From Sphingomonadales bacterium (GTDB lineage: Bacteria; Pseudomonadota; Alphaproteobacteria; Sphingomonadales; Sphingomonadaceae): a stretch of DNA of 64,000 nt. A program made the translations under genes and the position numbers. Under the pieces are notes generated by a model that did no database searches, was not told the origin of the DNA, and saw only the letters and a program-made list of their open reading frames with translations. Shown piece after piece: positions 41,172 through 59,917 of the stretch. The stretch lies in assembly GCA_025362295.1 (NCBI GenBank), contig JANYGX010000017.1, forward strand, positions 62,001 to 126,000. The letters are read 5' to 3'. Every line of letters begins with the position of its first letter. Position 1 is the stretch's first letter.

Positions 41172-41987
41172 TTAAAGCTTTGCCAGCCATGATAGGCAAA
41201 GCCATGATAAATCATCTTTATTATCATTACCCGAGAAGCTGTGGTCGCCACCGATTACAGTTTTTATAGTCATATGTGCTTTGGCAGGCCGTGCTTTTAG
41301 AAATTGCGCAAACTCGGCTCCGGTAAAATCCTTATCACCGATTACAGACAAAACCGGTTTGGTGTTGTTTTCCCATGCGGTGGTTACATTAACAACCAGA
41401 TCATCCAATGAAGCTGGTTTATGCCGCATCGAAACAAGTGAGCCAAAAACAGATTTGACGCTTTCGGCAACATTGATACGACCCAGCAACAAACGCTGCC
41501 ATGCCCTTTTGTCCAGAAAACGAGCCTTGTAGTGATGGCTGATCACAGTTGCGGCTTGGCTTGCTGGACTGCGCACCCACATGTTGCACAAGATAAAGCC
41601 ATCAATCTCCAAAACTTTTTGAGATGCGAGCAAGGCCGCCGTTGCACCGTCACACAAACCGAACAAAACAATCCGCAGAGTCTGAGGGGCCGCCGATTTC
41701 AGGGCAACAACAGCCGATGCAATATCTTCGTGAAGGTTGGTAAAGCCCGGGTGGTGTCCGCCGCTATCGCCCATGCCGCGGCAATCGAAGCGCAGTGTCG
41801 GGTAGCCTTGACTGGCAAGGCATTGAGCAAGCTCAACAAAACCACGATGTGCCCCAACCCGGTACTGCGTACCGCCCGGTACAACAATAACAGCTGTGGT
41901 GCTGGGGGCCATTGCCCGATGCAGCAAGCCCAGCAAGGTTTTGCCCTCACACGTCCAGGCCAGCGGCTGTGGTAATTCACTGTTCAT
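41172..41987 (-). CDS. exosortase A system-associated hydrolase 1 (alpha/beta hydrolase fold, Cys nucleophile)
   Basis: 271 residues, alpha/beta hydrolase fold: VVPGGTQYRVGAHRGFVELA, the FDCRGMGDSGGH turn, and a nucleophile elbow GLCDG with Cys112 in place of Ser. The acid is likely in VIGDKDFTG and the His in IGGDHSF. Cys-elbow members of this type accompany exosortase A loci, where they may act as thioesterases or acyltransferases. ATGA overlap with hydrolase 2 and the ACP gene beyond point to joint action on an ACP- or CoA-bound group. Confidence 0.88.
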   Translation of the reverse strand: MNSELPQPLAWTCEGKTLLGLLHRAMAPSTTAVIVVPGGTQYRVGAHRGFVELAQCLASQGYPTLRFDCRGMGDSGGHHPGFTNLHEDIASAVVALKSAAPQTLRIVLFGLCDGATAALLASQKVLEIDGFILCNMWVRSPASQAATVISHHYKARFLDKRAWQRLLLGRINVAESVKSVFGSLVSMRHKPASLDDLVVNVTTAWENNTKPVLSVIGDKDFTGAEFAQFLKARPAKAHMTIKTVIGGDHSFSGNDNKDDLSWLCLSWLAKL

Positions 41988-42700
41988 TTCAATATCTCAC
42001 CAAGCAGCACAGTCGCAAGTTCAACGGCCAGTTCATCCGCTGGCTCGGGTTCGTTTTGCAGCCACAAGGGTGAACCCGTTCCTGTGATATCAACCACCCT
42101 GACATTATTGGACGCTGTATCCGAAAGCTTTGCTGCATTGACAGATTTAACAAGTTTCAATGATAGCGTATAACCAGCCGCTTCAACACTTTCGCCGCGT
42201 TCCAGGGCATCCATCAAATCAGCCATGCTCACCGGTTGCTTGCTCGCTTGTGTGCCAATGCTTTTTGCCCGCAACAATGTTCTGATTTGGCTGGCCCCAT
42301 CGACTGGGTTAATTGCTATAACAGGGGCTTTGTCAAGCAGCCCATCGACAGCCAAAACAGCCCCCAGGCGCAAGCCGACACCATATATTTTGGGCGCACC
42401 ATTTGTATTCAAATGCAGAAATCCATCGGCAACGGCTTTTTTCCACACATCCCAGCTGGCATCGTGAAACTGCAGGGGGGTATCACCTGTGCCGGGCACA
42501 TCAAGAATGTAACTGCCGATTCCGCGGTCTGCCAGCATACTGCAGCTTAAGGCCATCAAGCGTCTGCAACGGTTCATTTCTTCGGCAAAAGGCGGGATGA
42601 AGAGAACGGTTGCCTTGTGGCGCCGGATGGCAGGCCAGCATGCCAGTAACGCCGTCTCCCGGCTGGTGCTGCCTATCCATTTGAGGTGTGGTACGCTCAA
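41984..42700 (-). CDS. exosortase A system-associated hydrolase 2 (alpha/beta fold, no obvious nucleophile)
   Basis: 238 residues. VLFIPPFAEEMNRCRRLM and SYILDVPGTGDTP match the hydrolase 2 family of exosortase A loci. At the elbow the sequence is GLRLG (109-113), with Arg where a Ser or Cys nucleophile would sit, so ordinary hydrolase chemistry is doubtful. It overlaps both neighbours by four bases. Confidence 0.85.
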   Translation of the reverse strand: MSVPHLKWIGSTSRETALLACWPAIRRHKATVLFIPPFAEEMNRCRRLMALSCSMLADRGIGSYILDVPGTGDTPLQFHDASWDVWKKAVADGFLHLNTNGAPKIYGVGLRLGAVLAVDGLLDKAPVIAINPVDGASQIRTLLRAKSIGTQASKQPVSMADLMDALERGESVEAAGYTLSLKLVKSVNAAKLSDTASNNVRVVDITGTGSPLWLQNEPEPADELAVELATVLLGEILK

Positions 42701-42987
42701 GGCTTTTGTGTCTTAATTGCAGCCAATTTGCAATCGATATAGTGTGTGAGAGAACCAAAGGTTTCAAATATATCGGCACTGATTTCATCATCATCGATCA
42801 ATATACTGAAGCGTTCCTCAATTGCCGTGAGGATTGTCGCAACCGCCATGGAATCCAGTTCGGGAAGCGATCCTAAAAGGGCAGTATCTGCTTGCAGGGC
42901 ACCGGCCTTGCTGCCCAACCCCAGAATATCAGCCAGAATTTGACGCAAGGTATCAGCCGTAGGCTGTGTATGTGCGGATAAGTTCAT
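42697..42987 (-). CDS. acyl carrier protein of the exosortase A locus
   Basis: 96 residues: a four-helix ACP with the phosphopantetheine site LDSM (S46) in LPELDSMAVATILTAIEE and the acidic FSILIDDDEISADIF helix. First gene of the minus-strand arm; divergent from the acyltransferase and ligase genes. It presumably carries the acyl or aminoacyl group made by the ligase and decarboxylase. Confidence 0.9.
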   Translation of the reverse strand: MNLSAHTQPTADTLRQILADILGLGSKAGALQADTALLGSLPELDSMAVATILTAIEERFSILIDDDEISADIFETFGSLTHYIDCKLAAIKTQKP

Positions 42988-43086
42988 AATATGCTCTTCG
43001 GCTTCAAATCTTAATATTCAGGTGTTAATCTTTGGCAAATAACTTAGACATTACAAGACAATGCTTATAAACATGAGTTTCATGGC

Positions 43087-43770
43087 TTGCAAAGCGACAA
43101 ATACGTGATTGACTTGACACCACAGAAAACGACCGGAGCTGTATCCTTGCAGCCTGTCGCAACACTTGCATATGTGTGCGACCGGCTGCTGCAATATAGT
43201 AATATTGGTCGATTGCGTCGTTATATATTTGTACAACAGCCTGTTGAAAGTCTGCCAGATATGCCGCGTGGCTTTTCGTCCCGCCCGGTATCGGAATATG
43301 AGCCTGTTATATCTATAATCGAACCCTCAGCTGAGGTTCGGCAATACCGCTACAATCAGGCAGCCGTGTGCTTGGCAGCTTTTCGGGGCGTTGAGCTTGT
43401 TGGCAGTCTGTGGCTAACATCAGAACAATTTATTGAGGATGAAGTGCGCGCGCGTTACAAACTGACAGAACCATTGTCGTGGGATACGGGCCTCAATATA
43501 CCACGTGCCTATCGCAGCGGCAGAGCATTTCAAGCACTTTGGGCGGGTGCCAAAGCCTATCTTCAGGCACAGGGTAAAACATCAACAGTCAGCCGGGTTG
43601 CCGATAACAATATGGCCTCGCTGAAATCCCACGCGCGTATGGGCGCAAATATTTTAGGATCAGCTGTTTTTATTTCCTTTGGCAAACTGCAAATCACGCT
43701 TTCCACCCGTCTCAAGGGTTTTCCGGTATCCGTTTCATGGTCTCAATACGCTGATTTCAGGTTTGGCTGA
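43087..43770 (+). CDS. GNAT-like acyltransferase of the exosortase A locus
   Basis: Up to 227 residues. The start is uncertain: TTG at 43087 opens the frame and GTG at 43105 is possible; no upstream ATG is in frame. Segments IGRLRRYIFVQQPV, AAFRGVELVGSLWL and GRAFQALWAGAKAYL, then VADNNMASLKSHARMGA, follow a GNAT-type fold, the last part resembling the acyl-CoA/ACP pantetheine-binding helix region. It sits between the ACP gene and the ligase gene, so it may transfer an acyl group from ACP. Its stop overlaps the ligase ATG by one base. Confidence 0.65.
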   Translation: MQSDKYVIDLTPQKTTGAVSLQPVATLAYVCDRLLQYSNIGRLRRYIFVQQPVESLPDMPRGFSSRPVSEYEPVISIIEPSAEVRQYRYNQAAVCLAAFRGVELVGSLWLTSEQFIEDEVRARYKLTEPLSWDTGLNIPRAYRSGRAFQALWAGAKAYLQAQGKTSTVSRVADNNMASLKSHARMGANILGSAVFISFGKLQITLSTRLKGFPVSVSWSQYADFRFG

Positions 43771-45287
43771 TGAATATTCCAGCGTCACTTGACGATATGC
43801 TTAAAGCCTCGGTGATGCGTTATGGGCCGCGCGAGGCACTGGTCGTCAAAAACCAGATTTTGTCCTACAGTGAGTTAGGTCTGGCAGTAGACAAGATGGC
43901 AAAGCAGTTGCAGCAAAAAGGTGTTGCCAAAGGAGACCGTGTGGCTGTTTGGCTACCCAAACAGATCGAGGTCGTGGTTGCCTTGTTTGCCGCAACGTCT
44001 ATCGGTGCGGTATTTGTGCCAATAAACCCAGCGTTAAAGCCGCGTCAGGTGGATTATATTCTGTCGGACTGCAGTGCGACTACGCTGGTCACAACTAAAG
44101 CGCGGTCAGTTCTGCTCTCAGCTGGCTGGCAGGCTGACGCTGCGGCACCATTGCTGTTTAACACAACGTCGCCACCAAAAACTCAGGTCGATGTACCCGA
44201 CACTCTAGCGGCCATATTGTACACTTCCGGCAGTACAGGCAACCCAAAAGGCGTCATGCTGAGCCAAGCTAATCTGTGCACGGGCACCGTTAGTGTTGCA
44301 GGCTATCTGGGCATCACTCAAAACGATCGTATTTTGTGCGTGCCGCCGCTCAGCTTTGATTACGGCTTGAATCAAGTGCTCACAGCCCTGATCAGCGGTG
44401 CGACAGCAATTCTGCATGATTATTTATTGCCAAATGATGTTTTGAAAGTGGCTGAGCAGTATCGCATTACAGGCCTTCCTGGTGTGCCGCCGATGTGGAG
44501 CCAACTGGTGGATGCTGTCTGGCCAGCAGCGCTTGCTGGGCAAATACGTTATATCACCAACACTGGAGGGCGCATGCCGCGCGCGGTTTTTGACAAGTTG
44601 CGTTTGCACTTGCCGCACAGTGACATTTATTTGATGTTTGGCCTTACGGAAGCCTTTCGCTCGACCTATCTCGACCCGAGGTTAGCTGACGTGTTACCCC
44701 ATTCTATCGGTAAGGCAATTCCTTACGCCGAAGTTCGTGTTGTGCGACCGGACGGCATGGAAACAGCTGATGGTGAGGCTGGAGAACTGGTGCACATGGG
44801 GCCGCTAGTGGCATTGGGTTACTGGCAGGATGATGCAAGAACACAGGCACGGTTTCGTCCCGCGCCTACGTGCGCAACATCTGTAACTTTAGGAACCATT
44901 TCGGTGTGGTCGGGGGACACTGTTGTCAGGGATAAAAATGGTTTTTTGAGTTTTGTAGCGCGTCATGATGATATGATTAAAACTTCTGGTTACCGTGTCA
45001 GCCCGACTGAAGTGGAGGAAGTGTTGTATGCCTCCGGCCAGATTGCAGATGCAATTGTAACTGGCGTGCCGGATGACACGCTCGGTCAATTGATCGTGGC
45101 TGCCGTAAGTTCAAAAAACGGCGAGGCTGTAAATACAGAAATGTTGCTCAAATTTTGTCGTCAACAACTCCCCGGTTTTATGGTGCCATATGCGCTTCAA
45201 GTCGTACCGGATTTACCGCGTAATCCCAATGGAAAGCTCGATAGAGCGGTTATCGCTCAAAATATCAAAGCACGCCATAATGTTTAA
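43770..45287 (+). CDS. AMP-forming acyl-CoA ligase, exosortase A system-associated
   Basis: 505 residues. Adenylate-forming enzyme with the P-loop ILYTSGSTGNPKGVMLS near residue 150, the YLMFGLTEAF region, RHDDMIKTSGYRVSP and a C-terminal catalytic Lys in NPNGKLDRAV. It activates a carboxylic acid as adenylate and loads CoA or the ACP. The acid is unknown. Its last eight bases overlap the decarboxylase start. Confidence 0.92.
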   Translation: MNIPASLDDMLKASVMRYGPREALVVKNQILSYSELGLAVDKMAKQLQQKGVAKGDRVAVWLPKQIEVVVALFAATSIGAVFVPINPALKPRQVDYILSDCSATTLVTTKARSVLLSAGWQADAAAPLLFNTTSPPKTQVDVPDTLAAILYTSGSTGNPKGVMLSQANLCTGTVSVAGYLGITQNDRILCVPPLSFDYGLNQVLTALISGATAILHDYLLPNDVLKVAEQYRITGLPGVPPMWSQLVDAVWPAALAGQIRYITNTGGRMPRAVFDKLRLHLPHSDIYLMFGLTEAFRSTYLDPRLADVLPHSIGKAIPYAEVRVVRPDGMETADGEAGELVHMGPLVALGYWQDDARTQARFRPAPTCATSVTLGTISVWSGDTVVRDKNGFLSFVARHDDMIKTSGYRVSPTEVEEVLYASGQIADAIVTGVPDDTLGQLIVAAVSSKNGEAVNTEMLLKFCRQQLPGFMVPYALQVVPDLPRNPNGKLDRAVIAQNIKARHNV

Positions 45288-46506
45288 CAAGTGGCATCAT
45301 ATTCCGGAAGGTTATGGCAATCAGGCCGGCGTGATGACAGTTGCTGGTCTGCCAGTCACAGAGCTGGTTGCCAAGCATGGCTCACCACTGTTTGTCTACG
45401 ATACAGCTTTGGTGCATGCGCGTGTGGCTAAAACCCGCGCTGCTCTGCCAGTTAATGTAAAGCTGCATTACGCCATGAAAGCCAATCCGCACCCGGCTAT
45501 TGTATCACTCATGGCAAGTTTAACGGACGGGCTTGATATTGCTTCAGGCGGCGAACTCAAATCCGCGTTGATGGCAGGTGTTGTTCCCGAAACAATTTCT
45601 TTTGCTGGGCCAGGCAAAACTGATACCGAACTACACGATGCAATACGTGCTGGCGTCAGAGTGAATCTGGAATCTGAGCTTGAGGCGAAAAGAGCGGGTG
45701 CCATTGCAATGGCGCTTGGCAAAACCGTGCGCGTTGCTGTGCGCGTCAACCCGTCTTTTGATATTAAGGGGACTAGCATGCGCATGGGTGGCACTGCCCA
45801 GCCGTTTGGCATTGATGAGGCCCGCGTGCCTGATGTGCTGGCAACACTTGGTCAAGAACCGTTTATTTTTGAAGGGTTTCATGTTTATGGAGGTTCGCAA
45901 TCTTTAAACGCGGAAAACATTATCGAAATGCAGGCTAAAACCTTTGATATGCTTGAAAAATTGAGTGTGGCTGCACCATGTTCGCCCAAAGTGTTGAATA
46001 TAGGTGGCAGCTTTGGTGTGCCTTATTTTCCGGGTGAAACCCCTCTCGACATTGTGAAAATAGGCAATGCTTTGGCAACGCAAATCGCCAACCGATCCGA
46101 GCAAATCAAAGCTGCCGAAATTGTTATTGAACTTGGTCGCTATCTTGTTGCCGAAGCAGGCATTTATATATGCACAATACTCGATAAGAAAATCTCATAC
46201 GGAGAAACGTTTTTAATTACGGACGGTGGGTTGCATCACCAGCTGGCGGCGGCCGGTCAATTCGGTCAAGTTTTGCGACGTAATTATCCTGTTGTTATTG
46301 CAACTAATCTTGATGGAAAAACAGAACATAAAGTAACCATTACTGGCTGTTTATGCACCCCACTTGATCGTCTGGCAGACAGAGTTCTTTTGCCTGATGC
46401 AGAGCCAGATGATCTTGTCGTCATATATCTCGCTGGAGCTTACGGCGCTTCGGCGTCACCAAAAGATTTTTTGGGGCACGCTCACCCCAAAGAAATCATT
46501 ATATAG
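45280..46506 (+). CDS. PLP-dependent decarboxylase, exosortase A system-associated
   Basis: 408 residues from ATG at 45280, which overlaps the ligase stop; a longer frame inside the ligase gene is rejected. Fold type III: Lys67 in LHYAMKANPHPAIV binds PLP, followed by GLDIASGGELKSAL and VNIGGSFG-like turns, and TGCLCTPLDRLADRV supplies the Cys of the other subunit's active site. Related to diaminopimelate and ornithine/arginine decarboxylases. In exosortase loci its substrate is not established. It probably supplies an amine for transfer. Confidence 0.92.
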   Translation: MFNKWHHIPEGYGNQAGVMTVAGLPVTELVAKHGSPLFVYDTALVHARVAKTRAALPVNVKLHYAMKANPHPAIVSLMASLTDGLDIASGGELKSALMAGVVPETISFAGPGKTDTELHDAIRAGVRVNLESELEAKRAGAIAMALGKTVRVAVRVNPSFDIKGTSMRMGGTAQPFGIDEARVPDVLATLGQEPFIFEGFHVYGGSQSLNAENIIEMQAKTFDMLEKLSVAAPCSPKVLNIGGSFGVPYFPGETPLDIVKIGNALATQIANRSEQIKAAEIVIELGRYLVAEAGIYICTILDKKISYGETFLITDGGLHHQLAAAGQFGQVLRRNYPVVIATNLDGKTEHKVTITGCLCTPLDRLADRVLLPDAEPDDLVVIYLAGAYGASASPKDFLGHAHPKEIII

Positions 46507-46623: not shown

Positions 46624-46743
46624 TGAAATTAACTTTATATGATACTTGCAAATGACCCTTTGAAAACATTAGAGTAATAATGTATATAACTTAAAGATTT
46701 GGCAATTAGTGCTTTTGATTGCTTTTTAATGAAGGAAAAAATT

Positions 46744-47418
46744 ATGATATTATTAACAGCGGCAACTTCTGCTTCCGTGTATAAACTTGCGCAAAAAATC
46801 TCCACAGGCCTCTGCATAGTGTCGGTGATTGCGCTTGGTGGTTGCGCAAATAACAGGTCGGGCCAACTGCCGCCGGCAGCGTTTGTGGCGCCCGCAGAAG
46901 GCCCAGGTCCTGATTATGTGATTGGGCCACTTGATAATATCAACATTTTCGTGTGGCGTAACCCTGAGCTTTCAACAACGGTGCGTGTACGACCTGATGG
47001 GCGTATAACCGTGCCATTAATAGAAGATTTGTCGGCAACGGGTCAGACACCAACTCAGCTGGCAAAAGCCATTGAAGAAAAGCTCAAAACGTATATTCAA
47101 AACCCAATTGTTTCTGTTATTGTATCAGATTTTAATGGTCCTTACTCGCAGCAAGTGCGTATAGTCGGGCAAGCAGCAAAACCGGCAGCTATACCCTATC
47201 GTGCGAACATGACGCTCCTTGACGCCATGATCGCTGTTGGTGGATTAACGGACTACGCAGCGGGTAATCGCTCGCACCTGGTGCGGTTTGATCCTAAAAC
47301 TGGTTCACAAAAAGAATATGATCTGAAAATTAGTCGCTTGCTGAAAGATGGCGATGTGAAGTCAAATATTCGTATTGAGCCTGGCGATGTGATCATTATC
47401 CCTGAAAGTTTTTTCTAG
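46744..47418 (+). CDS. polysaccharide export lipoprotein (Wza/ExoF type, XrtA locus)
   Basis: 224 residues from ATG at 46744, with GAAGGA seven bases upstream; longer frames from 46699 or 46729 are rejected. Lipoprotein signal peptide with lipobox LGGC. Poly-export domain (YVIGPLDNINIFVWRNPELS, VRPDGRITVPLIEDL) followed by SLBB-type strands (QVRIVGQAAKPAAIPYRANM). It forms or lines the outer-membrane channel for the exopolysaccharide. First gene of the long plus-strand arm. Confidence 0.92.
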   Translation: MILLTAATSASVYKLAQKISTGLCIVSVIALGGCANNRSGQLPPAAFVAPAEGPGPDYVIGPLDNINIFVWRNPELSTTVRVRPDGRITVPLIEDLSATGQTPTQLAKAIEEKLKTYIQNPIVSVIVSDFNGPYSQQVRIVGQAAKPAAIPYRANMTLLDAMIAVGGLTDYAAGNRSHLVRFDPKTGSQKEYDLKISRLLKDGDVKSNIRIEPGDVIIIPESFF

Positions 47419-47596
47419 AATAATGGCTTCATGAGCGCACCTGACGTGTTGCTTTTTTTGAAGGCAGGAAAACAAGTGTCGTTAAAGACACATTAAGACC
47501 ATGAATATAGAAGTGGTCATTATGTTTGGTTAGTTGAATAAAATTCAAATTTTGATTAACCGCGCCAAAATAATGAAGGCCACAACAGGATAAGGC

Positions 47597-49195
47597 ATGA
47601 CTTCAGTTTACGACCAAATTTTGGGTACACTCTACGGGATATGGCGTCGCCGTTGGTATGGCATTGCAACCATGTGGGCTGTGTGCTTGCTTGGCTGGGG
47701 CATAGTCGCGGCTATCCCTGACACTTACGAAGCCACAGCTCGCATATATGTCGATACAAATGAAGCCTTGAAAGATTATGTTGAGGGTGGCCAATCAAAC
47801 AATGTGCTGAAACAAGTTGACGTTGTGAAGCGAACGCTCATCAACCACGCTAATCTTGAACGTGTTATAAGGCGCACAGATCTGGATCTTACGGCATCAA
47901 ACGAGTCCGATACTGAAAAGTTAATAGATCAACTCGCCGAAAATATATCTCTCAAAAACCAGGGCGAAGATTTGTTCACGATTTCATACAAGTCTGGCGC
48001 GCGCCGGTTGACCACGCAGGAAAACGCCAACCTTGCCAAGCGGGTGGTGCAAAACCTGATTAACATTTTCGTTGAAGACAACATGGGTGGCAAGCGAGAT
48101 ACGCTGAATGGCGTCATTCGGTTTCTTGATGAGCGCCTGAATGATCTTAAAGGCCAGCTTGAGCAGTATGAAAAAGCAAAAGCTGATTTCGAGCGTGCTA
48201 ACAAAGGTTTTCTAGAGGGGCCGGATAACTACCAGACACGGCTTTCTACAGCGCGGACAGAAGTTGCCCAGCTTGAACAAAGGCTGACTGAACTGCGCTC
48301 TTCGCGCTCGGCATTATCAGCACAGCTTGGCTCTATACCAGCAACGATACCTGGCAGCACATTTGTGTTTCAGCAAGCCGGTGGCACAACGGGTGGATAC
48401 CGCGAAGATCCAAATTCAACAGCTGGCCGCATTGAAGTTATGCAGCGTCAACTGACCGAAGATTTTGCGAAGGGTTTGACAGAAAACCACCCTGACGTTG
48501 TAACAATCAAATCGCAGATTTCTCAATTGCAGAAACAACTCGAGCTTGAAAAGCGATCAGCGCCCAAAAAAGCGGCCGCTGAAAATGCTGCGAGTCAATC
48601 TAACCCAGTATATGTTCAAACGAAAATGCAGTTGATTCAAAAAGATACGGATTTGCATGCAACAGAGGCGCGTTATGCGCAGTTGAAAGGTGAAATATCC
48701 AGCCTTGATGGCAAGACTGAAACGATGCCTTCTACAGCCGCTGAGAAATCAAAAGTAGACCGCGATTATGAAGTTACGCGCCACAGCTATGATGAAATGC
48801 TGCAAAAGCGGGAAAAAGCAAAACAGGCACTTGCAGCTGAAACCGGCGCTGAGCCTTTCCATATTCGCATTATTGATGCACCAGAAGTTCCATTAAAGCC
48901 TGTCGCCCCTAATCGCCCCTTGTTGTTATCAGGAGTGATCATTGCCGGATTGATATTGGGTATTGCGGCATCATTCATTCTCAGCCAAATTCACACAACA
49001 TATTTAAACGTTAATAAGTTGCGTGATGGCCTCAATATACCAGTTCTCGGCAGCGTTTCGGCTATTTTGACCGAGCAACAGCGCAATCAGGCGCGTATGT
49101 GGCTCAGCATGTTTCTGCTCGCATTTGGTAGCCTGGTTGTTATTTACGGGGTGTTGATGGCTATCGAGATCACCCAAAGATCAACGGCTATTTAA
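47597..49195 (+). CDS. XrtA-associated polysaccharide chain-length determinant (Wzz/PCP type)
   Basis: 532 residues: membrane helix ~20-40, a Wzz-like domain (TYEATARIYVDTNEALKDYV), long periplasmic coiled coils (~180-400, Gln/Glu/Lys-rich heptads), a GNVR-like proline segment (VPLKPVAPNRPLLL) leading into the second membrane helix (~440-460), and a further hydrophobic C-terminal segment (~505-525). It controls chain length with the autokinase encoded next. Follows the export gene after 178 bases. Confidence 0.92.
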   Translation: MTSVYDQILGTLYGIWRRRWYGIATMWAVCLLGWGIVAAIPDTYEATARIYVDTNEALKDYVEGGQSNNVLKQVDVVKRTLINHANLERVIRRTDLDLTASNESDTEKLIDQLAENISLKNQGEDLFTISYKSGARRLTTQENANLAKRVVQNLINIFVEDNMGGKRDTLNGVIRFLDERLNDLKGQLEQYEKAKADFERANKGFLEGPDNYQTRLSTARTEVAQLEQRLTELRSSRSALSAQLGSIPATIPGSTFVFQQAGGTTGGYREDPNSTAGRIEVMQRQLTEDFAKGLTENHPDVVTIKSQISQLQKQLELEKRSAPKKAAAENAASQSNPVYVQTKMQLIQKDTDLHATEARYAQLKGEISSLDGKTETMPSTAAEKSKVDRDYEVTRHSYDEMLQKREKAKQALAAETGAEPFHIRIIDAPEVPLKPVAPNRPLLLSGVIIAGLILGIAASFILSQIHTTYLNVNKLRDGLNIPVLGSVSAILTEQQRNQARMWLSMFLLAFGSLVVIYGVLMAIEITQRSTAI

Positions 49196-49218
49196 TGTGC
49201 AGTGCAAGGAACGCATAA

Positions 49219-50160
49219 ATGTCTGATAACGATAGCACACTGAAAGATGAAGGCGTTTCCATATTGGAGCGAGCTGCGCGTCGGCTTGATCATGCACTTG
49301 GCCACCAGTCTTCTTCCAGCCCATCGGCATCCCAAGAGGCCATTCGCCATCAGGTTTACGATAACACACTCGATCTTGAACAGCCGGTTTCTTTAGCCGA
49401 AGACGCTGACGATTCACCGCAACGGCTCAGTCGTCGCGGGGAAATCGATCTCGTTTCATTACGCGAAAATGGTTACATCGTGCCGGACTCGCCAGCAACT
49501 GTTACAGCGGAAGAGTTTCGCCTGTTAAAGCGGCAGCTGTTGCTTAACGCTTTTGCGCGCGGCGAGGGCGCCATCCGCAACGGTAACCTCATTCTGGTTT
49601 GTTCAACCCAGCCTAACGAAGGCAAAACCTTTTGTGCGATCAATCTGGCACTCTCTATTGCTTCAGAGCGTGATTTGACTGTGCTGCTGGTTGATGCCGA
49701 CTTTGCCAAGCCTGAAATTCTCTCAACACTTGGCCTTGAAGGCGGCAAAGGATTGATTGACGTGATTGCCGATCCGTCCCTCAATTTGTCGGATTGCTTA
49801 ATTCGCACAAATATAGAAAATTTTTCCGTATTGCCTGCAGGTCGTCAGCATCACTTGACAACAGAGCTTCTGGCATCGGAGCGCATGGGTATGATGATAG
49901 AGGAAATTGCCCAGCGCTACCGCGACCGTGTCATTATATTTGATTCTCCCCCAGTTCTGGCGAGTTCGGCAGCGTCGGTTCTGGCATTGCACGTGGGCCA
50001 AACATTGTTTGTCGTGGAAGCGGAGTCCACACGCGAGCAGCAGCTTCGCGAAGGCCTTGCCATGATCTCTGCCTGCAAAAACACACATTTGTTGCTCAAC
50101 AAAACAAAATACAGTTCTGGAGGCCGTAAGTTTGGCTCCTATTATGGTTATGGCGCTTAA
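49219..50160 (+). CDS. XrtA-associated tyrosine autokinase (BY-kinase)
   Basis: 313 residues: Walker A STQPNEGKTFCAINLA, Walker A' VLLVDADFAKPE, Walker B VIIFDSPPVL, and a C-terminal tyrosine cluster (SYYGYG) for autophosphorylation. A cytoplasmic BY-kinase that cycles with the chain-length determinant to drive polymer export. The ~90-residue N-terminal lead (RRGEIDLVSLRENGYIVPD) is typical for the exosortase-linked type. Confidence 0.93.
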   Translation: MSDNDSTLKDEGVSILERAARRLDHALGHQSSSSPSASQEAIRHQVYDNTLDLEQPVSLAEDADDSPQRLSRRGEIDLVSLRENGYIVPDSPATVTAEEFRLLKRQLLLNAFARGEGAIRNGNLILVCSTQPNEGKTFCAINLALSIASERDLTVLLVDADFAKPEILSTLGLEGGKGLIDVIADPSLNLSDCLIRTNIENFSVLPAGRQHHLTTELLASERMGMMIEEIAQRYRDRVIIFDSPPVLASSAASVLALHVGQTLFVVEAESTREQQLREGLAMISACKNTHLLLNKTKYSSGGRKFGSYYGYGA

Positions 50161-50176
50161 TAAAGGATTGGACTTC

Positions 50177-51976
50177 ATGAAAACTGGAAGTCAGTTGTCA
50201 AGGCGGCGTTCCGCTACACTTACCATGCTTTCATCGGGCGTGGCGCTATCCTGTATATTCACGCCACTGGCGCAGGCGCGCATAACAATAGAACCGCGTG
50301 TAGATGTCCGTGCTGTTTTTTCCGACAACGTGAACGCTTCACCTGATGGTTTTAAAGATGCAGGCATTATAACGGTATTCGAGCCCGGTATCGGCGTGAC
50401 AATCAACAGCGCCAAACTTGAGGCGACAATTGATTATAATGCAGGCATCAGGAAAGCGTTGTTTGCCAGTACCAGAGGCAATACAGTCAAACATAATTTG
50501 CTGGCGCGAGGTTCAGCAAAAATTATTGATGATTTTCTCTACTTGAATGCGGGCGCTGTTGTTACCCAGCTGGTGCGTAACCCGCAGGGTTCAGTGACTT
50601 TAAACCCGGATACCTTCAGCAACAATCTCGATCATGTGGCAACGTTTTATGTTGAGCCATCCATCAGGCGGCGATTGAATGAATATCTGAATTTGACAAT
50701 CAACACGCAAGTGGGGCTGACAATTCTGAAGGATCAACCGGACAATCGGCCACTGCGAGCAAATGTCAATGATCCGCTTTTTACAAATATCAATCGGGTT
50801 AATTCACAAAATTTTTCTTCACAACCAGGATCCAGCAGCGATAACGAAAGTGCATCAGCTGGTCTTCAAAGCGGTGACGCTTTTCAGCATTTCAAATGGG
50901 AGCTGAAGGCATCATGGAGCCGTGACAAGCGCCGGTATCTGAATGAACTTGACAATGATTATTCAGGTGTTGCCAATCTTGAGGTGCCGCTTACGCGTGG
51001 ATTTTCCCTGGTTGGCAGTGCTGGTTATGAATCCAGCAAAGATGTCGAAGATGTCATAGTGACCAATCAATCCACACGGTTTCCGGAAGTGCTGCCAGAC
51101 GGTACATTTCTGGTTTTGCGTGATGCAGACTCTCGCAATGGCACCAATCTTACAGGCACAAACCCGCAACTGTCCGATGGTATTGGTGGCTTGCTGCCGC
51201 GACGCGATGGGCGAATTATTGATCGCAAGGGCTTCATATGGGACGCTGGTTTTCACTGGAATCCAAGCCGCCGTACTGACATCACCGTGCGCGGCGGGGC
51301 GCGTTTTGGTACAGCTAATATCAGTGTTAACGGCTTTCATAAATTTTCCGAACATTCGTCGGTTAACCTGAGCTACGGCACTAATCTTGATAGTCTGTCT
51401 CGCTTGCTCACTCGCAGCATCAATTATTCAAACGGCATCAGTGGGCCGACACAAGTGCAGGTGCTTGGTCAGCGCTCCACACCCGTTCTGTTGCCGCTTA
51501 ACGGGTTCGACCCGATCAATGGTGGCTACACAGGCAACCTTGCTATCAACAACGGCACTTTCCTGCAACGCACGGCGCGCCTGACGTACATTTATGATCG
51601 TCCATCATTGAATGCCAACATCAGTCTTTTTGCTGAAGATCGCCAGCTGCTTAGCCTGCAATACTTACCGGGACAAAGGCCAATTTTGCCAAGTGCCATT
51701 CCCAATGACAGGTCCATCGGCACGGCTTCAACCTTTGAGCACCACCTTGATAAAACCCACAGCATTCTGGTGGACCTTGATTTTCGCTACAGTGAATACT
51801 CACTTGATACCGCAAGGCGTGATTATCTTTACGGTGGAACTGTTGGTTACCGCGTCGAGTTTACACCCAAGATCAGGCTGGAGACAAAATATCTTTTTAG
51901 TAAACGTCAGACCAATGCAACCGGGTTTAATATTAAAGAAAATAATATAACTGTCAGCTTGCAGGCCAGATTTTAG
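50177..51976 (+). CDS. XrtA/PEP-CTERM-associated outer-membrane beta-barrel protein
   Basis: 599 residues from ATG at 50177 (AAAGGA eight bases upstream). Signal peptide (~1-34, ending AQARI) and then many alternating amphipathic strands, ending in an aromatic residue (LQARF). The opening RITIEPRVDVRAVFSDNVN is the mark of the beta-barrel family found in exosortase A clusters (TIGR03016-like). It may be the outer-membrane secretin-like conduit or an attachment site for the polymer. Function is not proven. Confidence 0.88.
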   Translation: MKTGSQLSRRRSATLTMLSSGVALSCIFTPLAQARITIEPRVDVRAVFSDNVNASPDGFKDAGIITVFEPGIGVTINSAKLEATIDYNAGIRKALFASTRGNTVKHNLLARGSAKIIDDFLYLNAGAVVTQLVRNPQGSVTLNPDTFSNNLDHVATFYVEPSIRRRLNEYLNLTINTQVGLTILKDQPDNRPLRANVNDPLFTNINRVNSQNFSSQPGSSSDNESASAGLQSGDAFQHFKWELKASWSRDKRRYLNELDNDYSGVANLEVPLTRGFSLVGSAGYESSKDVEDVIVTNQSTRFPEVLPDGTFLVLRDADSRNGTNLTGTNPQLSDGIGGLLPRRDGRIIDRKGFIWDAGFHWNPSRRTDITVRGGARFGTANISVNGFHKFSEHSSVNLSYGTNLDSLSRLLTRSINYSNGISGPTQVQVLGQRSTPVLLPLNGFDPINGGYTGNLAINNGTFLQRTARLTYIYDRPSLNANISLFAEDRQLLSLQYLPGQRPILPSAIPNDRSIGTASTFEHHLDKTHSILVDLDFRYSEYSLDTARRDYLYGGTVGYRVEFTPKIRLETKYLFSKRQTNATGFNIKENNITVSLQARF

Positions 51977-51998
51977 ACATAAAGGTTTACCCACGCGC

Positions 51999-53093
51999 AT
52001 GTATGAGGATTTTTACAAACTCAAAGGCAAACCGTTTCAGCTAACACCTGACCCACGGTTTTATTTTGATACCCGCACCCACAAGAAGGCAATGGCTTAT
52101 CTCACCTATGGCTTGTCGCAAGGTGAAGGGTTTATCATAATTACAGGTGATGTTGGTGCCGGAAAAACCACTTTGGTCGGGCACTTGTTCGACTCTCTCG
52201 ATAAAACCCGCTACGTGTTTGCCAAGGTTGTCACCACACAACTCGATGCTGATTCAACCTTAAAAATGGTTGCAGCCGCGTTTGGTATTCACATCGATGG
52301 TTTGGACAAGGCTGGCATACTTGGCCGCGTTGAATTGTTTTTGCGGCAGCAGTTTCGCGATCGCCGTCGCGCCCTGCTGATTGTTGATGAAGCGCAGAAT
52401 TTGCCTGTCAGTGCGCTGGAAGAATTGCGCATGCTTTCCAACTATCAAGAGGGCAATAAAGCTTTGCTGCAAGTATTTTTGCTGGGTCAGCCGGAGTTTC
52501 GTGACAAGCTTGCATATTCCAACGAGCTGGAACAGCTGCGCCAGAGGGTTATTGCAACACACCATCTGGAGCCAATGCAGAAAGAGGAATTGCCGGGTTA
52601 TATTTATCACCGGCTCAAGCTTTGCGGATGGAACAACAACCCGAGATTCACAGACGCGGCTTTTGACACCATGTTCGATTATTCAGGGGGTGTGCCGCGC
52701 AGGCTCAACAATTTAGCATCTCGTATTTTGCTATTTGGTTCTCTCGAAGGCAAGACCGAAATAGACCATGACATTGTTGAAGAGGTGATCAACGACCTTA
52801 AAAAGGACAGTACACCAACAACCGGCCCCAAGCATCCAGGTGTGGCCGATATGGCGTTTGCAGGTGGCGGACTGGTGAGATCGAATGTGCCGCCCAAAAT
52901 CCGTGCTGATTTGGCGGCAGCGAACAGCGATTTAATGGGTGCAGACCCTGAACTTGTGCGTCGTATCGAAGTGCTTGAGCGCTATGCCAAGGCGCATGAC
53001 CAAACAATCAGACAAACCTTGCAAATATTGAGTGACTGGGCAGATGCGGCGGCTGTGCCTGTGCCTTTGAAGACCGGAACCAATGAACAGTGA
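51999..53093 (+). CDS. XrtA-associated AAA ATPase (ExeA-like)
   Basis: 364 residues: N-terminal YEDFYKLKGKPFQLTPDPRF, Walker A GDVGAGKTTL, Walker B ALLIVDEAQNL, sensor and arginine-finger regions (RQRVIATHHLEP, GGVPRRLNNLASRILL). C-terminal coiled tail. Like ExeA/GspA it could aid assembly of an envelope machine. The ATG at 51999 follows the barrel gene by 22 bases, and its end overlaps the deacetylase gene by 11 bases. Confidence 0.92.
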   Translation: MYEDFYKLKGKPFQLTPDPRFYFDTRTHKKAMAYLTYGLSQGEGFIIITGDVGAGKTTLVGHLFDSLDKTRYVFAKVVTTQLDADSTLKMVAAAFGIHIDGLDKAGILGRVELFLRQQFRDRRRALLIVDEAQNLPVSALEELRMLSNYQEGNKALLQVFLLGQPEFRDKLAYSNELEQLRQRVIATHHLEPMQKEELPGYIYHRLKLCGWNNNPRFTDAAFDTMFDYSGGVPRRLNNLASRILLFGSLEGKTEIDHDIVEEVINDLKKDSTPTTGPKHPGVADMAFAGGGLVRSNVPPKIRADLAAANSDLMGADPELVRRIEVLERYAKAHDQTIRQTLQILSDWADAAAVPVPLKTGTNEQ

Positions 53094-54003
53094 GTCGCAA
53101 ACTTCCAGCAGATATGTAAAGCGTGCGGCTGATGGGCGGATCATCAATGCCATGTCAGTGGATATTGAGGAGTTTTTTCAGGTTGGGGCGTTTGAGACCA
53201 CGATTCCGAAATCGAATTGGGACACAATCGCCAGCCGCGTTGAATACAACACTGATTTGGTGCTTGATCTGTTTGCCAGAAAAAATATGCACGCGACCTT
53301 TTTCACGCTTGGCTGGGTGGCAGAACGTCATCCGAGTCTAATTAAGCGTATTATAACAGCGGGCCACGAACTGGCCAGCCATGGTTACGATCATACGCGC
53401 GTGCACTTGCTTGATCCTGAGCGGTTTGCAAAAGACCTGGTGCGCACCAAAACCATTCTGGAAGATATTTCTGGCGCCATAGTGAGCGGTTACCGTGCGC
53501 CAAGTTTTTCCATTGGTGAGCGAAACCTTTGGGCACTCGATATTCTTGCCGAGAGCGGTTATCAATATTCATCCAGTGTCTACCCGATAGCGCACGATCA
53601 CTACGGTTGGCCATCGGCATCGCGCTGGTCGTTTCAGCCGGTCGCAAAAAGCCTTATGATTGAAATTCCGGTGACCACCGTCAAGACGATGGGAAAGATT
53701 TTTCCATGTGGTGGTGGTGGATTTTTCAGATTGCTGCCATACGCACTTTCGCGTTGGACAATTGATCAGGTTAATACAGTTGAACAGCAACCCGCGATGT
53801 TTTATTTTCACCCTTGGGAAGTTGATGCCGATCAGCCGGTGCAACATCTGGCACCGTTAAAATCGCGTCTGCGCCACTATGTGAATTTGAAGCATATGCT
53901 TGGCAAAGTCGGTCGCGCGCTGGATGATTTTCATTGGGATCGCGTTGATAACGTTTTTCTGAACAAAAATGAAACAGCGCTGCAACAGCCGCAGGCGGCT
54001 TGA
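53083..54003 (+). CDS. XrtA-associated polysaccharide deacetylase
   Basis: 306 residues, NodB-like: catalytic/metal Asp in MSVDIEEFFQVG, ATFFTLGWVAERHPSL, the metal motif HxxxH in ELASHGYDHTRV, YRAPSFS, and a C-terminal extension with GGGGFFRLLPYALSRW and FYFHPWE, the DUF3473 tail of the exosortase-linked subgroup. It likely removes N-acetyl groups from the exopolysaccharide. No signal peptide is seen, so it may act on lipid-linked intermediates inside the cell. Confidence 0.93.
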   Translation: MNSESQTSSRYVKRAADGRIINAMSVDIEEFFQVGAFETTIPKSNWDTIASRVEYNTDLVLDLFARKNMHATFFTLGWVAERHPSLIKRIITAGHELASHGYDHTRVHLLDPERFAKDLVRTKTILEDISGAIVSGYRAPSFSIGERNLWALDILAESGYQYSSSVYPIAHDHYGWPSASRWSFQPVAKSLMIEIPVTTVKTMGKIFPCGGGGFFRLLPYALSRWTIDQVNTVEQQPAMFYFHPWEVDADQPVQHLAPLKSRLRHYVNLKHMLGKVGRALDDFHWDRVDNVFLNKNETALQQPQAA

Positions 54004-55051
54004 GGCAGTGGTGGCTTTAACGGTTCGGTCTCTGGCACTTGACAGCAACGTGAATTCTGCTGCCTGGGATGCGTTTGTGCAAGCGCACGATGCAGGCACG
54101 GCTTTTCACCTCACAGCTTGGGGCAGGGCTATTCACCGCACATTTGGCCATGGCATTCACTATCTGGCAGCCTATCGCGGTGCTGAGCTTGCGGGTGTTT
54201 TGCCACTCATTCATGTGAAATCTCGCCTTTTCGGTAATGCGCTCATTTCCAATGCATTTGCAGTTTATGGTGGCCCGCTTGCAGATGGCCAAGATGCGCA
54301 TGATGTGCTTGATGCTGCTGCTTGGGGCCTTGCGGAAAAGTTTGGCGTGCCTGTACTTGAATATCGATCACAACTAGCAACGCGAACGGAATGGCAAAGC
54401 AAGAGTGAAACCTATGCCACTTTCAAGCGCTCGCTATCATTAAATTCAGATGAGAACATGAAGGCCATCCCGCGCAAGCAGAGGGCTGAAGTGCGCAAAT
54501 CTTTGGGCAACCAACTGACTGTTGATATTGACCGTAACACGGAAAAGCATTTCGCCGTTTACAGTGCTTCCGTGCATAAACTAGGCACGCCGGTGTTTCC
54601 CAAAAAATTATTCCGGAATTTATTGGAATGTTACGGCGAGAATGCCAATATCCTCACGGTTAGTCACAATGGCATGCCGCTGTCTTCTGTGTTGTCGCTG
54701 TACTTCAGGAACGAGGTTATTCCTTACTATGGCGGAGGGGTTGAAGCCGCGCGCGAATTTCGCGCCAACGACCATATGTATTGGATGCTCATGGAACACG
54801 CCATCAATCGCGGGTGCACATCGTTTGACTTTGGCCGCAGTAAAATTGGCACGGGTGCCTATGCCTTCAAAAAAAACTGGGGTTTTGAGCCGACACCTCT
54901 TGCCTACGAATTCAAACTGGCGGCTGGTCAATCAATGCCGGATATCAATCCGCTCAATCCAAAATACCGGGCGATGGTTTCAGCCTGGAAGAAACTGCCG
55001 CTATCGGTTGCCAATATGGCTGGCCCGATCATTGCCGGTGCGTTAGGATAA
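53969..55051 (+). CDS. FemAB-like protein, XrtA/PEP-CTERM system-associated
   Basis: 360 residues from ATG at 53969, which overlaps the deacetylase by 35 bases. GTGs at 54008 or 54011, just after that stop and with GAGG upstream, are good alternatives. Tandem GNAT-type domains: WDAFVQAHDAGTAFHLTAWG, AGVLPLIHVKSRLFGNALIS, and a second half with FDFGRSKIGTGAYAFKKNWG. FemAB proteins transfer amino acids from aminoacyl-tRNA to glycan precursors. In this locus it may add an amino acid or amine to the polymer, perhaps the product of the decarboxylase. Confidence 0.9.
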   Translation: MKQRCNSRRRLEAVVALTVRSLALDSNVNSAAWDAFVQAHDAGTAFHLTAWGRAIHRTFGHGIHYLAAYRGAELAGVLPLIHVKSRLFGNALISNAFAVYGGPLADGQDAHDVLDAAAWGLAEKFGVPVLEYRSQLATRTEWQSKSETYATFKRSLSLNSDENMKAIPRKQRAEVRKSLGNQLTVDIDRNTEKHFAVYSASVHKLGTPVFPKKLFRNLLECYGENANILTVSHNGMPLSSVLSLYFRNEVIPYYGGGVEAAREFRANDHMYWMLMEHAINRGCTSFDFGRSKIGTGAYAFKKNWGFEPTPLAYEFKLAAGQSMPDINPLNPKYRAMVSAWKKLPLSVANMAGPIIAGALG

Positions 55052-55054
55052 GAT

Positions 55055-56647
55055 ATGGTTACAAGCATTGTGCATATACTGCCAAATAAAAACAACATAA
55101 TGCAGACATGGCAACATAGCTTGCTGATGTGGGCAGCGCTGGTGGCGGCGCTTATTGGCCTGTTTTGGCCAACAATTGAATCGCTCTTCGATATATGGAA
55201 CAACAATGTTGCCTTTGGCCATTGCCTGTTGATTGCGCCAATCATTGCCTGGCTGGTATGGCAACGCCGCACACTGGTGGCCAAGGTTGCACCACAGGCG
55301 TGGTGGCCAGGGCTGCTGGTACTGTTTCTTGCCGCGAGCTTGTGGCTGGTGGGATGGGCAGGGCGCATCAACGTTGTTCAGCATGCGGCTCTTATTTTCA
55401 TGCTGCAATCGAGTGTGCTGCTGGTCTTTGGACCTCAGGTGACCAGAGCCGTTTTGTTTCCATGGGCATTTGCCTTGTTCATGATTCCGGTGGGTGATCA
55501 GGTGGTGCCGCAACTTCAGCATGTCACAGTGTGGTTTGTTATCAAGTTGCTTGCTTTGGCGCATGTGCCGTTCACGCTTGACGGGGTTTTCTTTCATGTA
55601 CCGAACGGAAATTTTCAGGTCGCAGAAGCGTGCTCGGGTATTCGCTACTTAACGTCGATGGTCGCCGTGGGGGCGGTCTTTGCCAATATTGCTTTTCAGA
55701 ACCCGTGGCGGCGTGTGTCCGTTATGGTGCTGGCCGTCGCCCTTCCGATTGTTGCGAATGGCATTCGCGCTTGGGGCATCATATATTTAGCCTTTATCTC
55801 CGGCAACAAGTTGGCCATGGGTGTCGATCACATACTGTACGGCTGGGTATTTTTTGCTCTGGTCATGGTGATGTTCATTTTTATCTGCCGGGCATTTTCT
55901 GATAAACCACTGGATGCCCCTGCTATCGATATAGAACCTCTTCTGGCAGCAAGATCAGGGTCAGCACCGCACAAATTATATGGTTGGTGGATAGCGGGTG
56001 CAGGGTTTGCCATACTTGCCGCCTTCACCAGCTACAGTCATATGATCGAAACGCGCGCACCAACTTTGGCTGACGTGGTCATCAAGCCAATTATCGTTGC
56101 TGGCTGGCGTGAGGCAAGTGCCGCAGATGCCGAAGATTGGAAACCGGTATACAAAAATATCGATGCTGCAAAACAAACGGTGTTTGTTGATGATTCCGGG
56201 CATCGTGTAACGCTCTACCTTGGCGTTTTTAAAATGCAGTCAACCGATAAAAATCTTGTGACATATGGCAATGGTGCATTCCTTCCAACCGAGGAGCACC
56301 GCAGCGAATGGGCGTGGACGGCCAACACCAAGCCACTACAATTAAAAAATACACCGCAACCGTGGTCCTATACCATGTATAAGAACCAGGTTGTGCGTGA
56401 TGTGTGGCAGTGGTTTATGGTTGGTGGCAAATTATATGCAAGCCCTACGCGTGCAAAAATTGCATCAGCGCTGGTGCGACTTTCGGGTGGACGCACAGAA
56501 GCAGCAACGCTCATACTAACGGCAGAACGTGTGGACAGTCAGCAATCGCGCGATGGTGATTTGTTACAGTTCATCCAAAGCTTAGATGCTGTTCAACCCC
56601 AGATATATGCATGGCTTGGTCTCAAAGCTGGTTTGACGGAGAAATAA
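55055..56647 (+). CDS. xrtA: exosortase A fused to an EpsI domain
   Basis: 530 residues: seven to eight membrane helices (~20-280), then an EpsI domain (~330-520). Transpeptidase-like residues are C193 in VAEACSGIRYL, R238 in VANGIRAWG and H259 in GVDHILYGW. Exosortases cleave proteins with a PEP-CTERM tail and join them to the cell-surface polymer. The EpsI part is a periplasmic domain common in proteobacterial XrtA. AGGA precedes the ATG at 55055. No PEP-CTERM protein was seen in the window. Confidence 0.95.
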   Translation: MVTSIVHILPNKNNIMQTWQHSLLMWAALVAALIGLFWPTIESLFDIWNNNVAFGHCLLIAPIIAWLVWQRRTLVAKVAPQAWWPGLLVLFLAASLWLVGWAGRINVVQHAALIFMLQSSVLLVFGPQVTRAVLFPWAFALFMIPVGDQVVPQLQHVTVWFVIKLLALAHVPFTLDGVFFHVPNGNFQVAEACSGIRYLTSMVAVGAVFANIAFQNPWRRVSVMVLAVALPIVANGIRAWGIIYLAFISGNKLAMGVDHILYGWVFFALVMVMFIFICRAFSDKPLDAPAIDIEPLLAARSGSAPHKLYGWWIAGAGFAILAAFTSYSHMIETRAPTLADVVIKPIIVAGWREASAADAEDWKPVYKNIDAAKQTVFVDDSGHRVTLYLGVFKMQSTDKNLVTYGNGAFLPTEEHRSEWAWTANTKPLQLKNTPQPWSYTMYKNQVVRDVWQWFMVGGKLYASPTRAKIASALVRLSGGRTEAATLILTAERVDSQQSRDGDLLQFIQSLDAVQPQIYAWLGLKAGLTEK

Positions 56648-56648
56648 T

Positions 56649-59789: not shown

Positions 59790-59917
59790 TATCAAAAGAT
59801 TTTAACAGTCATACCATAAGCCCTAAAGGCCATAATATAGTGCAATAATAATGTGTATCTTGCGGCCATGCCGCTCACGCCTTACATAGAACTTAAATTC
59901 TCAAAGGTCTTTTGTCT

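Follow-up and report, generated by a model that had tools for sequence, protein, structure and literature searches.

Predicted carrier-bound decarboxylation module beside an exosortase A locus of a Sphingomonadales bacterium, and its occurrence outside exosortase loci

In described pathways, an amino acid can be attached to a carrier protein before it is decarboxylated. VinN attaches 3-methylaspartate to VinL, after which VinO decarboxylates it, and the thioester must form first (excerpts of PMC11284099). BtrK is an L-glutamyl-[BtrI acyl carrier protein (ACP)] decarboxylase that converts glutamyl-S-BtrI to gamma-aminobutyrate (GABA)-S-BtrI, and BtrI is a carrier protein of 87 residues (excerpts of PMC7857480). 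For the Dba unit of bolagladin, excerpts of the published account state that deletion of bolN abolished production and that feeding beta-alanine gave no rescue, that deletion of bolQ led to congeners with beta-alanine instead of Dba, and that BolO and BolN are proposed to load the amino acid first and to decarboxylate it on the ACP. We compared with these systems six genes at positions 41172 to 46506 of a 64,000-nucleotide stretch from a Sphingomonadales bacterium (assembly GCA_025362295.1, contig JANYGX010000017.1, positions 62,001 to 126,000 of the forward strand), hereafter the window. They encode an ACP, an AMP-forming ligase, a pyridoxal phosphate (PLP) decarboxylase, two proteins of named hydrolase families (hydrolase 1 and hydrolase 2) and a GNAT-like protein, next to an exopolysaccharide (EPS) locus with exosortase A (XrtA). 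Judging from sequence comparisons, we consider that the ACP, the ligase and the decarboxylase make up a module for carrier-bound decarboxylation like those of VinN/VinL/VinO, BolO/BolC/BolN and BtrI/BtrK, with transfer by hydrolase 1, at a probability of about 0.73. In addition, the trio of ligase, decarboxylase and ACP is used more widely than the exosortase setting. New here are the link between exosortase-named families and a type of module already known, and the evidence that this module exists in its own right.

The ligase (43770 to 45287, plus strand) scored 641.7 bits against the NCBIfam model TIGR03098, with a cut-off of 592.35, and it also matches general Pfam families. Its closest named relative is the ligase of Hankyongella ginsenosidimutans, with 56% identity. 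For the substrate-binding segment, the best solved match was 3wv4/3wvn with 60.1 bits, and the next other protein reached 44.1 bits. The entries 3wv4 and 3wvn carry the title 'non-ribosomal peptide synthetase' in the PDB table, and we take them to be VinN. An offset of 16 places the residues of 3wv4/3wvn on VinN D230, S299 and R331, which are aligned with D197, T265 and R297 of the window ligase. The residues required of a VinN-type AMP ligase, which are Asp for the amino group and Ser and Arg for the carboxyl group, are present in the window, with Thr for Ser. Asp, Ser or Thr, and Arg occur together in 88 of the 92 aligned ligases; those without the full set are from loci L022, L024, L094 (the ligase at 3671) and L099 (the ligase at 7734), where L numbers denote our loci. 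Based on these residues, we predict that the ligase probably binds an amino-dicarboxylic acid. As a separate observation, the ligase of L022 (L022:7751-10600, from another genome of the class) has 949 residues, and visual inspection suggests that it extends into a domain resembling a carrier protein and a region similar to membrane acyltransferases. This ligase has Gly for the VinN-type Asp and Ala for the Ser.

The decarboxylase (45280 to 46506, plus strand) scored 538.5 bits against TIGR03099 (NCBIfam cut-off 478.45). Its longest open reading frame (ORF) begins at 45190, and the start is likely the ATG at 45280. The best solved relative is BtrK (7ru7) with 245.2 bits, followed by 6knh ('probable diaminopimelate decarboxylase protein') with 150.3 and by 2p3e (diaminopimelate decarboxylase) with 141.5 bits. 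By score, therefore, the enzyme is nearer to BtrK than to diaminopimelate decarboxylase. The window decarboxylase, BtrK and 6knh read C-T-P where 2p3e reads C-E-T. The Glu of the C-E-T motif would contact the far end of diaminopimelate. The CTP motif is found in 76 of 79 aligned decarboxylases scoring at least 270 bits, the window included. The ACP (42697 to 42987, minus strand) matched the Pfam PP-binding family (PF00550) with 28.3 bits at a cut-off of 20.8, and its phosphopantetheine site reads LPELDSMA. The DS motif is present in the ACP relatives of at least 60 bits whose motif was listed. A free-standing ACP is thus encoded together with the ligase and the decarboxylase.

Hydrolase 1 (41172 to 41987, minus strand) scored 243.1 bits against TIGR03100 (NCBIfam cut-off 168.45). 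It carries a Cys-Asp-His triad of C112, D220 and H249, and in the aligned sequences of at least 150 bits, window included, the nucleophile Cys is present in 40 of 40, the Asp in 39 of 40 and the His in 39 of 40. Its AlphaFold2 model (pLDDT 87.8) is a confident alpha/beta-hydrolase fold, and Foldseek returned TM-scores of about 0.6 to 0.7, all to Ser or Asp enzymes by title, including esterases, lipases and dehalogenases. Within this fold, Cys nucleophiles are known from polyhydroxyalkanoate (PHA) synthases and some thioesterases, which form bonds rather than hydrolyse them. The protein is a candidate acyl transferase or thioesterase, and its name as a hydrolase is possibly wrong. Hydrolase 2 (41984 to 42700, minus strand, with a TTG start) scored 127 bits against TIGR03101 (hydr2_PEP), below the cut-off of 202.75, and it was classed as a relative of this family by score and gene position. 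It has R111 at the nucleophile position, and because Arg stands there in all 40 aligned sequences of at least 120 bits, window included, it is probably not a hydrolase; we rejected a catalytic hydrolase for want of a nucleophile. The Ser nucleophile of Ser-type alpha/beta-hydrolases is absent from both hydrolase alignments (40 of 40 in each). The GNAT-like protein (43087 to 43770, plus strand, with an uncertain TTG start) gave no Pfam or NCBIfam match at E 0.001. TIGR03694, which we take to be the NCBIfam model of the PEP-CTERM-linked N-acyl amino acid synthase, was likewise not matched at this threshold. Its AlphaFold2 model (pLDDT 80.3) matches GNAT folds by Foldseek, with a best E of 1.8e-6 and a modest TM-score of 0.53, and the matches indicate the general GNAT fold only, with no named family. 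Similar proteins are found in seven named loci, and in L018, L019 and L021 a protein of another GNAT family (Acetyltransf_6) is encoded between ligase and ACP, on the ACP strand.

A reaction sequence can be proposed for these proteins. In the first step, going by its binding residues, the ligase would activate an amino-dicarboxylic acid as the adenylate of its side-chain carboxyl and load it onto the ACP; L-aspartate is the most likely substrate and glutamate a less likely one. In the second step, going by homology, the BtrK-like enzyme would decarboxylate the amino acid at its alpha-carboxyl while it is held on the carrier, with beta-alanyl-ACP as the likely product, or GABA-ACP if the substrate were glutamate. 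A third step might follow in genomes with XrtA, where the Cys-triad hydrolase 1 would take the group off the ACP and transfer or release it. Hydrolase 2, which has no nucleophile, and a protein of GNAT or FemAB type might assist, and the group might end up on an amino sugar in the polymer or on a comparable acceptor. Alternatively, a GNAT-type protein might itself move or release the group. In the exosortase locus, the module may serve transfer by the Cys enzyme to the polymer or the anchor, and use for the polymer is plausible. A previous reading of the window from its letters and ORFs (the sequence-only reading) had described a small assembly line that decarboxylates an amino acid, activates an acid and loads the ACP. 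A small ACP-based line with ligase, decarboxylase and transfer-type genes agrees with our results. The order is probably the reverse, because the VinN-type relatives load the amino acid before decarboxylation; VinN/VinO, BtrK and, as proposed, BolO/BolN decarboxylate on the ACP. Of the two hydrolase labels in that reading, that of hydrolase 2 is doubtful, and that of hydrolase 1 possibly misnames an enzyme with a Cys nucleophile.

We surveyed 80 named loci, in which all counts are lowered by contig ends, short flanks and ORF over-calling. The record of L100 carries a frameshift. In 71 of the 80, the ligase has a decarboxylase no more than 1 kb away, a count that includes L089 of Burkholderia puraquae, whose decarboxylase shares just 24% identity and is of a different kind. 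The ACP is in view in 55 loci, hydrolase 1 in 34, hydrolase 2 in 34 and both hydrolases in 33, and XrtA-type EPS genes are in view in 20. Fourteen loci show the ACP with neither a hydrolase nor XrtA-type EPS genes in view, with a farther XrtA locus being possible in some of these genomes; they include Micromonospora, Nocardioides, Mycobacterium, Paraburkholderia, Methylobacterium and Termititenax. On pSymB of a Sinorhizobium meliloti strain (L127:6462-12148), ligase, decarboxylase, ACP, a GT2 glycosyltransferase and a polysaccharide deacetylase stand in a row, and decarboxylases like this one were found in 59 records, 27 of them from Sinorhizobium plasmids. On the Aureimonas plasmid pAU20a, the trio is located among glycosyltransferases in a glycan cluster like that of pSymB. 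Both plasmid copies retain the ligase residues D, T and R and the CTP motif, and the gene directly 5' of the ligase is GNAT-like by eye on both, with no Pfam match. Paraburkholderia L053 contains an ACP, KAS III-type genes, ligase, decarboxylase, an acyl-CoA dehydrogenase and a GNAT; its ligase (679 bits, TIGR03098) and decarboxylase (564.7 bits, TIGR03099) pass the exosortase-named cut-offs. The ACP, ligase and decarboxylase of L067 are spaced as in L053. A B. cenocepacia record (H1) had no annotation.

Among 299 genomes of the phylum, the ligase is over its cut-off in 17, XrtA in 19 and hydrolase 1 in 15. Ligase and XrtA are both over their cut-offs in 15 genomes, precisely those with hydrolase 1. 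In G302 (G numbers denote our genomes), XrtA is present, with ligase (548.7 bits) and hydrolase 1 (166.0 bits) each just under the cut-off. G283 and G330 have the ligase without XrtA over its cut-off, and at E 1e-120 the ligase was not found in G195, G201 and G439, which are 3 of the 19 XrtA genomes. Among 147 genomes of the order, the ligase (E 1e-120) is present in 89, XrtA over its cut-off in 98 and hydrolase 1 (E 1e-20) in 79; ligase and XrtA occur together in 72, hydrolase 1 and ligase in 76, and hydrolase 1 and XrtA in 72. XrtA stands without the ligase in 26 of the 98, of which 25 are from family f206. XrtA seems to work without the module in f206, because these 25 genomes carry it over its cut-off and neither ligase nor hydrolase 1 was found in the family.

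In the window's own family (64 genomes), the ligase is present in 60 and XrtA is over its cut-off in 48. The 16 genomes without over-cut-off XrtA retain the ligase in 12 cases and hydrolase 1 in one (G573), and three of the 16 (G330, G560 and G577) have a weaker, different exosortase match. In all 12, the genes beside the ligase include those for a decarboxylase bearing CTP and for an ACP bearing the DS site; in the ligase of genus g309 (L113), the search pattern did not match the Asp motif. Because the trio is kept in 12 of the 16 genomes and hydrolase 1 in one, we conclude that the trio outlives XrtA and that hydrolase 1 usually does not. The 12 ligases fall at seven places in the sphingomonad part of the ligase tree, which comes from one FastTree run with several weak nodes and was built with hits of at least 540 bits, leaving aside L022 and one of two L064 ligases. 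Five of these places (genera g307, g320, g170, g172 and g311) lie among ligases of XrtA-linked loci. The other two are near the base, g308 with L087 and g309 with L061, beside ligases that also have no XrtA genes in view. In L105, L106, L107, L111, L112, L116, L125 and L126, truA adjoins the decarboxylase end and trxB the opposite end, and within the stretch fetched for these loci no gene of the EPS or XrtA kind was matched. L108 and L109 retain the XrtA-type ATPase, L108 also the deacetylase, and L115 holds hydrolases and trio beside a remnant of an XrtA locus. The sequence-only reading had held that the ligase and decarboxylase families are known only from exosortase loci. This is contradicted by the bolagladin-like set, the rhizobial glycan clusters and the XrtA-less genomes of the family. 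We rejected an exosortase-only pathway, as the trio is found without exosortase. Independent occurrence without XrtA is found for ligase, decarboxylase and ACP; hydrolase 1 instead tracks XrtA. The co-occurrence with XrtA that this reading had wished to see checked holds for hydrolase 1, which is accompanied by XrtA in 72 of 79 order genomes; the ligase also occurs without XrtA.

Several points weigh against the carrier-bound module. Over its whole length, the ligase scores slightly higher against two CoA synthetases (180.3 and 178.6 bits) than against 3wvn (169.4 bits). The peptide synthetase 8xjz reaches 235.4 bits over two stretches, a score not split by domain; that of the gramicidin synthase LgrA (270.7 bits) is the sum of two domains (155.1 and 112.8). 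In addition, VinN Ser299 is replaced by Thr in the window, and most members of the ligase family have Phe in place of VinN Lys330, as seen in an alignment of hits of at least 390 bits. The substrate of BtrK is glutamate, so glutamate and GABA are possible for the window module as well, and the link to bolagladin is drawn from the gene content of L053. The higher CoA synthetase scores and the matches to general Pfam families would also suit an ordinary fatty acyl-CoA/ACP ligase accompanied by a second LysA. We consider this very improbable. The decarboxylase scored 240.7 bits against the LysA model TIGR01048, below the cut-off of 297.9, and reads CTP rather than CET, for which a second LysA was rejected; the Asp and Arg residues of the ligase are conserved and the ACP neighbour is recurrent. 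The decarboxylase fold is common to free amino acid decarboxylases, so that an amine could be made from a free amino acid and then joined to another acid that had been activated and attached to the ACP. This is quite unlikely and was rejected, since the closest relatives use an ACP-bound substrate, with BtrK as the nearest solved one; no separate acid is needed, because the ligase has amino-acid-binding residues. The module might further make the nucleophile for XrtA, as a beta-alanyl primary amine on a polymer or lipid that receives cleaved PEP-CTERM proteins. The exact coincidence of hydrolase 1 with ligase plus XrtA in 15 of 299 phylum genomes, and its absence from 15 of the 16 family genomes without over-cut-off XrtA, agree with this. 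However, since some XrtA genomes lack the ligase (26 of 98 in the order; 3 of 19 in the phylum at E 1e-120), the module is not a general requirement of XrtA, and in the order 7 of 79 hydrolase 1 genomes have no over-cut-off XrtA. A general anchor-maker for XrtA was rejected on the 26 order genomes, and we regard the nucleophile proposal as unlikely.

The remaining alternative concerns free beta-alanine, for which the trio could be the main source for pantothenate and CoA, with the XrtA locus borrowing the product. This is a serious possibility, if short of even odds. The trio may replace PanD as the beta-alanine source, because the ligase (89 genomes) and panD (20 genomes) never occur together in the 147 order genomes; of the 130 with panC, 86 carry just the ligase, 20 just panD, 24 neither and none both. 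In the window's genome, panC is present and panD was not found. The retention of the trio in 12 of the 16 XrtA-less family genomes, with hydrolase 1 in one, points in the same direction. In other classes of the phylum, panD is present in none of the five genomes that combine ligase, XrtA and hydrolase 1 (among them G302, whose ligase and hydrolase 1 fall slightly short of the cut-offs) vs 53 of 69 without the ligase (Fisher P 0.0013). The rows for sphingomonad genera in the excerpted table of PMC7142369 list panB and panC without panD, except Zymomonas mobilis subsp. pomaceae, which is also without panB and panC. On the other hand, all 20 panD genomes belong to f206, so the exclusion may reflect few evolutionary events, and panD is uncommon in alphaproteobacteria anyway (37 of 204; excerpts of PMC7142369). 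The 24 panC genomes with neither gene also speak against it, the scored routes being panD and the ligase only, and 3 of 17 order genomes lacking panC retain the ligase. As side observations, the near-complete genomes G537, G577, G587 and G589 of the window's family have panC and, at our thresholds, gave no match to panD or the ligase, and S. meliloti 1021 is reported to be without panD yet prototrophic (excerpts of PMC7142369). Among 50 hand-picked genomes of the 80 named loci, panD is present in 16 (by class as judged from record titles: Beta- and Gammaproteobacteria 11 of 28, Alphaproteobacteria 0 of 16, actinobacteria 4 of 4, others 1 of 2); the Beta/Gamma share compares with 53 of 69 without ligase at P 0.0008. 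When all ligase genomes of other classes are taken (E 1e-120), panD is found in 5 of 11 vs 53 of 69 (P 0.06). The 80 genomes of other classes in this comparison are all 11 with the ligase and 69 without, of which 8 were added by hand for XrtA-like hits, which lowers panD among the 69, and the Fisher tests ignore phylogeny. The exclusion of ligase and panD is correlational and confounded by phylogeny. In addition, where hydrolase 1 is missing, no enzyme is known that would be dedicated to release, and it would be odd for a carrier route to replace PanD, given that the carrier depends on CoA for its own arm. A further possibility, somewhat less likely than not, is a carrier-protein route to beta-alanine, in which aspartate is loaded on a dedicated ACP and decarboxylated to supply CoA synthesis in panD-lacking sphingomonads and some other Proteobacteria, and from which the exosortase locus diverts beta-alanyl-ACP through the Cys-triad transferase into polymer or anchor. 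If true, this route would be a non-orthologous replacement of PanD.

All six ORFs were found within 41172 to 46506 at the positions of the sequence-only reading, which had seen two divergent, tightly coupled arms; indeed, consecutive genes in each arm overlap by 1 to 8 bases, and a gap of 99 bp (42988 to 43086) separates the arms. A promoter scan of this gap gave one weak promoter-like match vs 0.6 expected, which is at chance level. L017 to L021 repeat the two-strand layout, with both hydrolases and the ACP encoded opposite the ligase and decarboxylase, and the same layout is found in 31 of the 80 named loci, so it recurs more than by chance. Directly downstream of the decarboxylase arm, the XrtA exopolysaccharide locus (46699 to 58562, plus strand) was recognised by NCBIfam matches and encodes export, chain-length, kinase-like and outer-membrane proteins, an ATPase, a polysaccharide deacetylase, a FemAB-type protein, exosortase A and an amidotransferase. 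Exosortase A (55055 to 56647) scored 303.8 bits against TIGR03109 at a cut-off of 208, and the kinase-like ORF (49219 to 50160) was assigned by its match to homologues in other loci, not by the family scan. The thioredoxin reductase gene trxB flanks the locus at 59912 to 60895; in relatives it adjoins hydrolase 1 (L020, L115) or directly the ACP (L106, L111, L112). The window's genome also has a second exosortase (G000:C23, L118:9468-11967), near XrtV/XrtB with 309.8 bits, slightly below the XrtV cut-off of 313, beside an EpsI-type protein and an EpsG-like kinase.

In summary, our comparison gives a testable chemistry to four families named only by neighbourhood in Alpha-, Beta- and Gammaproteobacteria, and predicts a beta-alanyl substituent in exosortase-linked polysaccharides. 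It would explain the persistence of the trio without exosortase, and offers a candidate answer to the source of beta-alanine in panD-lacking sphingomonads. With the XrtA/PEP-CTERM exopolysaccharide loci (Haft et al. 2006; NCBIfam), the window shares gene families and order, and NCBIfam lists TIGR03098 to TIGR03101 as hypoth_equivalog models with no function assigned. The excerpts of PMC7756342, PMC11284099, PMC1569441, PMC7142369, PMC9386255 and PMC7857480 state no function for these four families, and a text search of Haft 2006 gave no word beginning with ligase, decarboxylase or hydrolase. PanD, the aspartate 1-decarboxylase, makes from aspartate the predicted product beta-alanine, but it is an unrelated pyruvoyl enzyme that uses free aspartate. 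For butirosin, BtrK is the closest solved homologue of the window decarboxylase, with the same CTP motif and an ACP-bound amino acid substrate, whereas this substrate is glutamate; the butirosin loading enzyme, BtrJ, is an ATP-grasp ligase and not an AMP ligase. The bolagladin enzymes BolO/BolC/BolN of Burkholderia gladioli, compared by gene kinds only, have the same kinds of genes as Paraburkholderia L053; they feed a nonribosomal peptide synthetase lipopeptide, whereas the window genes adjoin an exosortase/EPS locus. In comparison with VinN/VinL/VinO, the ligase family mostly has Phe for Lys330, VinO is compared by its reaction, and no macrolactam polyketide synthase (PKS) is among the annotated window genes. 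Neither a PKS nor a second aminoacylating enzyme, as in a macrolactam starter pathway, was found among the window proteins scanned (39812 to 61802). On the other hand, this system shares with the window the ligase residues D230 and R331, with S299 as Thr or Ser, a free-standing ACP and a PLP decarboxylase that, in the window as in VinO, would act after loading.

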